From: Candidatus Poribacteria bacterium
GTDB lineage: Bacteria; Poribacteria; WGA-4E; WGA-3G
DNA: 64,000 nucleotides
Assembly: GCA_003635195.1 (NCBI GenBank)
Contig: PYIY01000011.1
Span: 1 to 64,000 of the forward strand
Direction of reading: 5' to 3'
How positions within the stretch are numbered: position 1 is the stretch's first letter; every line of letters begins with the position of its first letter. Shown piece after piece: positions 1,812 through 3,848 of the stretch. The translations under genes were made by a program, and so were the position numbers. Under the pieces are notes generated by a model that was given only the letters and a program-made list of their open reading frames with translations, did not search any database and had not been told where the DNA came from.

Positions 1812-3275
1812 ATGATCATGGCACAACAAAACATAACACTCCAAAAAATTGATGAATACCGCTGGCGTATCCCGAAAAGTTACATGAAAGGTATGCGCGT
1901 AGATGGCATCGTCTATGCCAACGAGAAACTCCTTGAGCATGCAAAAAGCGACGAGGCGTTGCAGCAAGTCGCAAATGTTGCACATCTGCCCGGCATCGTC
2001 AAACACTCGCTCGCAATGCCCGACTTACACTGGGGATACGGTTTCGTCATTGGTGGTGTCGCTGCGACCGATCCGAAGGCAGATGGTGTGGTCTCTCCCG
2101 GCGGCATCGGGTACGACATCAATTGCGGGGTCCGTCTCATCCGAACAAACCTTGATGTTTCGCAGCTTGAAGGGAAACGGAAAGCACTCATCGGCAAATT
2201 GTTTGAGAACGTTCCCTGCGGTGTCGGCTCCAGCGGCACGATTCGGCTTACTGTCCAAGAAGAGCGGCGGATGTTGGAAAAAGGGGCACTGTGGGCAATT
2301 GAGCGGGAATACGGACACCCGCACGACCTTACCTTCACCGAAGCGACCGGGTTCCTCCAACACGCCAACGCCGACGCTGCGAGTCAACGCGCCTTGGAAC
2401 GCGGCAAAAACCAGCTCGGCACCCTCGGCTCCGGTAACCATTTCCTTGAAGTCCAAGCAGTTGATCGTATCTTTTACCGAGAAGCCGCCGATGCGATGGG
2501 ATTAAGCGAAGGCAACATCTGTGTCATGATTCATACCGGGTCACGCGGCTTCGGCTACCAAATCTGCGATGAACACGTCAAGAGTTGGGTCAAAGTCGCC
2601 GAAAGATACGGCATCAAGCTCCCTGACCGACAACTCGCCTCCGCACCGATTAACTCACCAGAGGGACAGGCCTACATCACCGCGATGGCGTGTAGTGCAA
2701 ACTACGCATGGAACAATCGGCAGTGTATTATGCACCTCGTCCGCCGGACCTTCATGCAATTTTTTGACACGACAGAAGATGAGCTCGGTTTGGAACTCGT
2801 CTACGATGTCGCACACAACATCGGAAAGTTTGAAAAACACACCGTTGATGGCGAGGAACGCGAACTCTTTATCCACCGCAAAGGCGCGACGCGCGCATTT
2901 CCCGCAGGACATCCGGAGATTCCCGAAAAGTACCAATCAGTCGGGCAGCCTGTGCTAATTCCCGGCGATATGGGGACCGCTTCTTACGTGCTTGTCGGCG
3001 ACCCGGGTGCGATGGCGGAGACGTGGGGCACCACCTGCCACGGTGCCGGTAGAGTCCTCTCACGGCGGAAAGCGATCGCCTTAACCAAAGGACGTTCTAT
3101 CCAAAAGGATTTGGAAGCACAAGGCATCTACGTCCGCGCCGAAGGCAGACGTACCCTCCAAGAAGAGGTACCTGAGGCTTACAAGGATGTTGATGAGGTT
3201 GTCCGTGTCGTTGACAAAGCAGGACTTTCGCGGCGGGTCGCACGCCTCCGACCCATCGGAGTCGTAAAAGGTTAA
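1812..3275 (+). CDS. rtcB: RtcB tRNA-splicing/RNA-repair ligase
   Basis: 487 residues, the usual RtcB length. RtcB joins 2',3'-cyclic phosphate (or 3'-phosphate) RNA ends to 5'-OH ends using Mn2+ and GTP. Signature segments are all present: H-L-P-G-I-V (58-63), M-P-D-L-H-W-G-Y-G (69-77), S-P-G-G-I-G-Y-D-I-N-C-G-V-R with metal ligands D102 and C105, G-S-G-N-H-F, H-T-G-S-R-G-F-G, and C-H-G-A-G-R whose His410 corresponds to the guanylylated histidine. Two starts are possible (ATG 1812 or ATG 1818); the first is used. The gene stands alone without rtcA, archease or an RtcR regulator next to it. A strong sigma-54 promoter match lies 140 bases downstream rather than upstream, although rtcB genes in other bacteria are often sigma-54 controlled. 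Confidence 0.95.
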   Translation: MIMAQQNITLQKIDEYRWRIPKSYMKGMRVDGIVYANEKLLEHAKSDEALQQVANVAHLPGIVKHSLAMPDLHWGYGFVIGGVAATDPKADGVVSPGGIGYDINCGVRLIRTNLDVSQLEGKRKALIGKLFENVPCGVGSSGTIRLTVQEERRMLEKGALWAIEREYGHPHDLTFTEATGFLQHANADAASQRALERGKNQLGTLGSGNHFLEVQAVDRIFYREAADAMGLSEGNICVMIHTGSRGFGYQICDEHVKSWVKVAERYGIKLPDRQLASAPINSPEGQAYITAMACSANYAWNNRQCIMHLVRRTFMQFFDTTEDELGLELVYDVAHNIGKFEKHTVDGEERELFIHRKGATRAFPAGHPEIPEKYQSVGQPVLIPGDMGTASYVLVGDPGAMAETWGTTCHGAGRVLSRRKAIALTKGRSIQKDLEAQGIYVRAEGRRTLQEEVPEAYKDVDEVVRVVDKAGLSRRVARLRPIGVVKG

Positions 3276-3335: not shown

Positions 3336-3409
3336 AGTGTCTATTTTTTAATCATAGCATGACCAAAAAACGGGCAATGTTGGCGCGCGTGTTGCCTAAA
3401 ATAGACACT
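3336..3409 (+). repeat. Inverted repeat with nested hairpin, just upstream of the sigma-54 promoter
   Basis: AGTGTCTATTTT (3336-3347) and its exact complement AAAATAGACACT (3398-3409) bracket a second pair, GGCAA (3373-3377) with TTGCC (3392-3396). It could be a tiny mobile element or, given its place 7 bases before the -24/-12 promoter, a site for an activator. The function is not known. Confidence 0.6.
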
Positions 3410-3415
3410 TTCCGA

Positions 3416-3432
3416 TTGGCACGGAAATTGCA
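3416..3432 (+). promoter_or_regulatory. Sigma-54 (-24/-12) promoter
   Basis: TTGGCACG-GAAA-TTGCA matches the sigma-54 consensus (T-T-G-G-C-A-C-G, four bases, T-T-G-C-A/T) at every conserved position, with the GG and GC elements 12 bases apart. It is intergenic and points rightward; the predicted start of transcription is near 3443. Other TTGGCACG copies in the window (for example 42175, 46667, 47947) are inside genes and lack the TTGC half. Confidence 0.7.
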
Positions 3433-3442
3433 TATATTTTGA

Positions 3443-3572
3443 TAAGCCTCCTTGGGTAAGCCGGAAGCATAGTTCCTGAAGGGCGTAATTTGCAAGCTGA
3501 TATTGCATGCGTTAGGTTAGCATCCCTGAAACCTTGCAACCTTTTAGGAAGTGGCTTCCGGCTCCTTTTTTT
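3443..3572 (+). ncRNA. Possible sigma-54-driven structured small RNA with terminator-like end
   Basis: Downstream of the -24/-12 promoter lies a region able to fold into one long stem. AGCCGGAAGC (3459-3468) pairs with GCTTCCGGCT (3554-3563). Inside it, TTCCT and AAGG pair with CCTT and AGGAA. Further in, TTGCAAG pairs with CTTGCAA. Seven T residues (3566-3572) follow the outer arm, as in an intrinsic terminator. No convincing open frame lies in it. The RNA would be about 130 nt. Sigma-54-controlled Y-RNA genes next to rtcB are known in some enterobacteria, which makes an RNA-repair link worth testing, but no Y-RNA signature was identified and no Rsr/Ro gene is present. It could instead be a long terminator or a mobile palindrome. 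Confidence 0.4.
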
Positions 3573-3682: not shown

Positions 3683-3736
3683 CTAAATTGACCCCTATGG
3701 TGTGGTTAGGAAACCAGACCATAGGTCTCAATTTAG
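3683..3736 (+). repeat. 54-bp inverted repeat
   Basis: CTAAATTGACCCCTATGGT (3683-3701) and ACCATAGGTCTCAATTTAG (3718-3736) are complementary at 17 of 19 positions, with a small inner GGTT/AACC pair. No T-run follows. It lies among other palindromic elements in a gene-free stretch and is probably a miniature mobile element. Confidence 0.6.
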
Positions 3737-3742
3737 GGGATC

Positions 3743-3848
3743 CCAGGCCCGGTAGGTTCGATTTTGCGGTGTACCATAAGTATCAATTTTAGAAAAATAA
3801 CCGCCTCGGCCCCAGGCCCGGTAGGTTCGGTTTCCCAACCGAACCGGA
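3743..3848 (+). repeat. Two units of the dispersed CCCGGTAGGTTCGG repeat
   Basis: Units begin at 3743 and 3811. The second is a full palindromic form: GGTTCGGTTT, then CCCAACCGAACCGG. Related units occur at about 5774, 10203, 10262 and 20332. They lie only in intergenic DNA. The upstream in-frame extension of the following gene through this area is therefore not real coding sequence. Confidence 0.7.

Follow-up and report, generated by a model that had tools for sequence, protein, structure and literature searches.

A predicted stand-alone small-RNA gene of Poribacteria with a sigma-54 promoter and an enhancer common to a nitrate-assimilation operon

What does the DNA behind rtcB encode in the 64-kb stretch of a Poribacteria genome analysed here (the window)? 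The original prediction had placed a near-perfect sigma-54 promoter there, feeding a long hairpin RNA that ends in a T-run, and had suggested a link to RNA repair. Judged by its sequence, the stretch is a real, previously unnamed, stand-alone small-RNA (sRNA) gene of Poribacteria that are uncultured and live with sponges. That the sRNA is driven by sigma-54 and has an upstream activator site is strongly supported. Its control site is common to genes of nitrate use, and the sRNA is therefore probably a regulator of nitrogen stress and not a part of RNA repair. The features of the locus (window positions) are:

1812..3275, + strand: rtcB, the upstream neighbour (PF01139, E 7e-174), with no functional tie to the sRNA
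3338..3354, + strand: enhancer (UAS) site 1, TGTCTATTTTTTAATCA, an exact match and conserved in relatives
3360..3376, - strand: enhancer (UAS) site 2, an inverted copy of site 1, TGCCCGTTTTTTGGTCA on the - strand (weight-matrix score 20.7)
3416..3431, + strand: sigma-54 promoter, -24 TTGGCAC and -12 TTGC; exact TTGGCANNNAANTTGC in 51 of 52 loci
3444..3570, + strand: small RNA (covariance-model match, fold z -3.69, covariation), start predicted at about 3441-3444
3444..3457, + strand: invariant 5' end AAGCCTCCTTGGGT with the anti-Shine-Dalgarno core CCTCCTT; putative seed, small GCCU/GGGU hairpin
3459..3563, + strand: long basal stem AGCCGGAAGC ... GCTTCCGGCT around two inner hairpins, with covariation in the basal pairs
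3509..3532, + strand: inner hairpin GTTAGGTTAG...CCCTGA, near-invariant across alignments
3554..3572, + strand: 3' arm and T-run, an intrinsic terminator by sequence and fold

The promoter proved to be as good as predicted: TTGGCACGGAAATTGCA at 3416-3432 is the sole exact match to TGGCACN5TTGCW in the window, and the single locus without the exact promoter among the 52 (L115) has TTGT in its -12 box. Genome-wide the exact pattern is found 50 times, versus 4 times for the reversed pattern. The genome has one match to rpoN, a gene that the prediction presupposed, and 21 matches to Sigma54_activat, about 17 of them strong. The exact site is also present in 20 of the 21 loci beyond the first 31, which were found with a promoter-free model. 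The long hairpin and its T-run were borne out as well. Folding of the predicted transcript (3443-3572) gives -48.9 kcal/mol (z -3.69), a value reached by 0 of 200 shuffles, and its final letters are seven T. The block 3416-3572 has one copy in its own genome and is thus not a dispersed repeat, which had been named as one of the findings that would refute the prediction. Downstream of the sRNA a strong 25-nt inverted repeat (window 3683-3736) lies within the repeat-rich part 3700-3840.

A stem that covaries among relatives, likewise expected, was recovered in two ways. In the alignment of 52 rows, each fitted to the covariance model, pairing holds in 89% of cells, and 19 of 31 pairs show two-sided change; the two-sided cells number 104, versus 32.4 in shuffled and 19-40 in slid controls. 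Both sides change in 12 of the 18 pairs of the basal stem (3459..3563). When 25 of the 52 rows, picked for spread, were aligned without the model (MAFFT/RNAalifold), the basal stem came out again together with the small 5' hairpin, and 6 of 15 pairs change on both sides. The genus taken alone covaries weakly, in 4 of 35 pairs and 8 cells (3.8 cells in shuffles).

The sRNA is confined to one family of the phylum in the genomes searched. A covariance model built from 31 rows found by blastn detected the sRNA in 52 of 84 genomes of the phylum Poribacteria, namely in 33 of 38 of its own genus, in 1 of 2 and 18 of 18 of two sister genera, and in 0 of 26 outside the family. Within a 60-genome set, blastn with 181 nt matched at full length in the own genome and, of the 35 further genomes of the genus, in 30; the other five included three with short promoter matches only, and the 24 genomes from outside the genus had no match. 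Among the genus genomes in which the sRNA is missing, the G007 assembly has no rtcB match, and the contigs of G008 and G033 end 90 bp and about 360 bp past rtcB, respectively; G002 and G010 have 1.5 kb of sequence behind rtcB and no sRNA in it. A scan for the promoter together with the 5' end, over 84,980 species genomes, returned 44 stretches, 43 from Poribacteria and one from an Akkermansiaceae contig, which was rejected as a family member for lack, by eye, of such a hairpin.

Around the promoter, the conserved part runs from about -80 to +159 and no further. The best-conserved part of the sRNA is its 5' end of 20 nt (98-99% in the genus, 95-99% in the sister genus), and CCTCCTT is identical in 31/31 genus rows, in 25/25 rows of the alignment picked for spread and in 52/52 rows of the full alignment. 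The length varies from 97 to 134 nt among loci, hence no reading frame is conserved; a small protein was rejected on this ground and on indels that are not multiples of three.

As predicted, rtcB lies just before the sRNA. It does so on the same strand in all 32 informative genus loci, and this arrangement is what speaks for a Y-RNA-like RNA of RNA repair, co-regulated with rtcB. In the sister genera, however, rtcB is found upstream in 6 of 14 informative loci and is missing from the other 8, all of which have enough upstream DNA; in the near-complete genomes G081 and G063 it lies about 3 Mb and about 1.8 Mb away. (The G081 rtcB is split over two overlapping frames, L299/L300, by a frameshift or a sequencing error.) Moreover, the sRNA has a promoter of its own behind rtcB, and the RtcR-like activator (PF06956) that had been expected was not found in the genome, the E. 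coli control being detected. Comparison with Y RNAs gave no support either: no Rfam family matched at the gathering threshold and none was plausible up to E 10 (including Y RNA, Qrr, GlmZ and 6S), and ARAGORN found 0 tRNA-like parts in the sRNA. We consider the link to RNA repair largely refuted and give it very little credence.

Elsewhere, the upstream gene resembles, by its sequence, SAICAR synthase or other genes. On the other side of the sRNA the genes belong to 14 unrelated groups, 20 of 49 being convergent and 29 of 49 on the same strand. With neighbours that change both upstream and downstream, the sRNA is a gene of its own. The same figures bear on the idea that the sRNA is a 5' leader, or an attenuator, for the gene that follows. 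The terminator at its end and a next gene on the same strand in 29 loci would suit such an element, which the unrelated groups and the convergent genes nevertheless render most improbable.

How is the gene controlled? Its enhancer consists of two inverted copies of TGYCTATTTTTTNNNCA. Counted over 51 of the 52 loci (L122, with 55 nt upstream, was left out), site 1 is present at ≤3 mismatches in 44 (0.3% of shuffled upstream regions) and site 2 at ≤4 mismatches in 49 (0.2% of shuffled upstream regions). Site 2 almost always lies 53-56 nt before the -24 box, and both sites mostly lie within 53-88 nt. The original prediction had seen in an inverted repeat (3336-3409) a possible place for an activator. 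This repeat exists, with arms of 12 nt (3336-3347/3398-3409), and an activator site in the region is supported, but the pair conserved in relatives is a slightly different one, 3338-3354/3360-3376. An extra sigma-54-like site in the enhancer region of the window, TGGCGCGCGTGTTGC, was discarded, being absent by eye from the upstream sequences of relatives.

Site 1 was searched at ≤2 mismatches in 13 genomes, and all of its 18 places in the own genome were read. Two of these lie ≤250 nt from a TGGCA-type sigma-54 site, one at the sRNA and the other at an operon; a third has a weaker TGGCG site nearby. The operon comprises, in this order, a receiver-ANTAR protein (PF03861 2e-17, PF00072), a nitrite/sulphite reductase (nirA), an MFS transporter and a molybdopterin oxidoreductase (Pfam was run with the G021 copies), a gene content that identifies it as a nitrate-assimilation operon. 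In the own genome its enhancer is doubled, as at the sRNA. In 4/4 other genus genomes examined, the gene of the ANTAR regulator is preceded by the same sites and promoter. G081, from a sister genus, has the same operon gene order, doubled sites and a sigma-54 promoter, its site being chosen for resemblance to the genus site from the 20 G081 matches, part of which were read. On a weight matrix made from 99 sRNA sites, the best operon site scores 21.7 and the second 13.3-13.7; the 99th percentile of random windows is 12.6, and the top score among 29 of the 49 other own-genome sigma-54 promoters is 10.3, all 29 being without an sRNA-type enhancer. The best operon site was found by similarity, so that it is the second copy, along with the promoter and the finding in another genus, that gives independent support.

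These comparisons also bear on whether the signal is nitrogen at all. The sRNA might be a sigma-54-dependent trans-acting regulator for some other stress (envelope, nutrient uptake or host contact), the nitrate operon having the same activator for another reason. Many sigma-54 promoters of the own genome do precede secreted or TonB-like genes, and one similar site lies at a LamG-type gene of G079. Those promoters, however, mostly carry another enhancer class, TGCCC-N-TTTTGTGCAG, and for the sRNA motif none of the 29 promoters examined comes near the score of the nitrate operon; we hold this reading to be rather unlikely, while giving it some weight.

We favour, with moderate confidence, an NtrC-type, sigma-54-dependent, trans-acting sRNA of nitrogen stress whose 5' end pairs with ribosome-binding sites. 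In the course of events that we infer, nitrogen limitation would activate an NtrC-type enhancer-binding protein, which would bind both sites at 3338-3376 and drive sigma-54 RNA polymerase at 3416-3431. The gene would thereby be expressed as an RNA of about 127 nt, made from about 3443 and closed by the long stem and the U-run. Its exposed invariant 5' end, AAGCCUCCUUGGGU, would base-pair with the Shine-Dalgarno regions of selected mRNAs and alter their translation, and the sRNA and the nitrate operon, under the same enhancer, would jointly adjust the cell to low nitrogen. What the computation shows is the gene with its promoter, enhancer, structure and conservation, and the presence of this enhancer at the nitrate operon as well. 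The NtrC layout (receiver, AAA+, Fis-type HTH) is present in 6 of 10 scanned activators. NtrC itself is suggested as the activator by the pathway, and the enhancer motif differs in detail from the NtrC consensus.

The classical core of anti-Shine-Dalgarno sequences reads CCUCCUU. In the own genome, complements to the sRNA 5' end over the full 12 nt are not enriched (43 vs 61 for the reversed pattern). The ribosome-binding site of own-genome nirA pairs with the 5' end over 11 contiguous bases (-21.0 kcal/mol), which puts it in the top 3 (0.65% as strong) of 461 start regions sampled from g1 loci with orthologues not merged. This pairing is strong in 3 of 6 genomes, namely the own genome, G001 (equal) and G006 (somewhat weaker), and not in G021, G017 and G081. 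Among the same 461 regions, the TonB-like gene with a sigma-54 promoter ranks within or close to the top 5% in many genomes. Since CCUCC pairs with most good ribosome-binding sites, this target evidence is weak, and nirA and the TonB-like gene are candidate targets, leads and not proof. rpmC (ribosomal protein L29) was rejected as a target: the own genome has a perfect 12-nt complement and G005 one with a wobble, but among the 50 genomes whose start region was compared, the complement is broken in most g1 rows and missing from every g18/g19 row. We think it improbable that the sRNA is a mimic of the 16S rRNA 3' end under nitrogen stress, its CCUCCUU broadly competing for Shine-Dalgarno sequences and lowering the translation of strong-RBS mRNAs as a class in place of pairing with single targets.

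Might the RNA act on a protein instead? Paired hexaloop hairpins with A1/G4 are the ANTAR antiterminator motif, and decoy RNAs that bind ANTAR proteins are of the EutX/Rli55 type. The leader of the nitrate operon has two A1/G4 hexaloop hairpins and then a terminator before nirA, as ANTAR control would predict (L345:6800-7254, - strand; equivalents in L346-L349). An ANTAR decoy reading of the sRNA itself was rejected, A1/G4 hexaloop hairpins being found in 4/52 versus 13% of shuffles. Rejected, too, was a leader motif GTWAGGTTA common to operon and sRNA, which 56/500 shuffles equalled in the own genome and 40 to 376/500 in the other four. The inner hairpin, GUUAGGUUAG...CCCUGA, is nearly as conserved as the 5' end and would suit an sRNA that mainly titrates a protein in place of antisense pairing. 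We regard this as unlikely, given that conservation peaks at the 5' end and that the hexaloops are, unlike those of the nitrate leader, not above chance.

For pairing with mRNAs, as in the favoured reading, a chaperone comes into consideration. A stand-alone Hfq was not found in 6 genomes, where Hfq domains occur only inside larger proteins; this tells against that reading. A protein of about 316-320 aa combines an N-terminal cold-shock domain with a C-terminal Hfq-like domain (L306:712-1668 in the own genome, L303:718-1668, L304:1489-2451; PF00313 1e-19 and PF21979 1e-6 in the L303 copy). The fusion is encoded in G000, G028 and G009 and is a possible RNA chaperone.

Which known sRNA does the gene resemble? 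NrsZ of Pseudomonas aeruginosa is a nitrogen-regulated sRNA made by NtrB/C and RpoN (PMC8395346). It is, as the Poribacteria sRNA would be, a stand-alone sRNA that depends on RpoN and a nitrogen-type enhancer. NrsZ, by contrast, is about 226 nt long, processed and next to ntrC (same source), whereas the Poribacteria sRNA has about 127 nt; no homology is seen (no Rfam match), and the phylum is a different one. As predicted for the Poribacteria sRNA, the Qrr sRNAs of Vibrio are trans-acting, driven by sigma-54 and an enhancer-binding protein, and at work in a symbiont (PMC10162802). They serve quorum sensing, do not match our sRNA in sequence and number five in V. harveyi (PMC2680268), versus one copy here. 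glmY is reported to have a sigma-54 promoter with upstream activating sequences; the GlmY/GlmZ pair acts with RapZ on glmS, and the Poribacteria sRNA has no Rfam match. The Y RNAs of rsr-yrlBA-rtcBA operons share the proximity to rtcB and have the sigma-54 activator RtcR (PMC7790460). They differ from our sRNA, which is without RtcR or a tRNA-like part, has its own promoter and is unlinked from rtcB in sister genera. The sRNA forms a new family of a known kind, in its presumed working closest to NrsZ. Among the publications listed by the literature searches, none dealt with a small RNA or a sigma-54 regulon in Poribacteria.

Nearly all that is known of this phylum comes from genome assemblies, and the family now adds a definite regulator, a partner predicted to belong to its regulon and a signal that can be tested. 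It has a bearing on how nitrogen is used in sponge symbioses and takes sigma-54 sRNAs beyond the proteobacterial examples (NrsZ, Qrr, GlmY/GlmZ).

Other sigma-54 promoters were noted on the side. In 16 of 19 loci (L064-L082) a TonB-like gene (MSAKRTSGAFMTSLVLH...) has in front of it a second sigma-54 promoter, very similar to that of the sRNA, and the sites TGCCC-N-TTTTTGTGCAG are doubled there. Many sigma-54 promoters of the own genome that have the TGCCC-N-TTTTGTGCAG enhancer (L024, L031, L032, L035, L039, L049, L050) precede secreted or repeat proteins, by eye LamG- and WD40/PD40-like, hinting at a sigma-54 regulon of surface proteins. In L042 and L043, sigma-54 sites lie before groES-like and Hsp20-like genes (named by eye), the latter several in a row.
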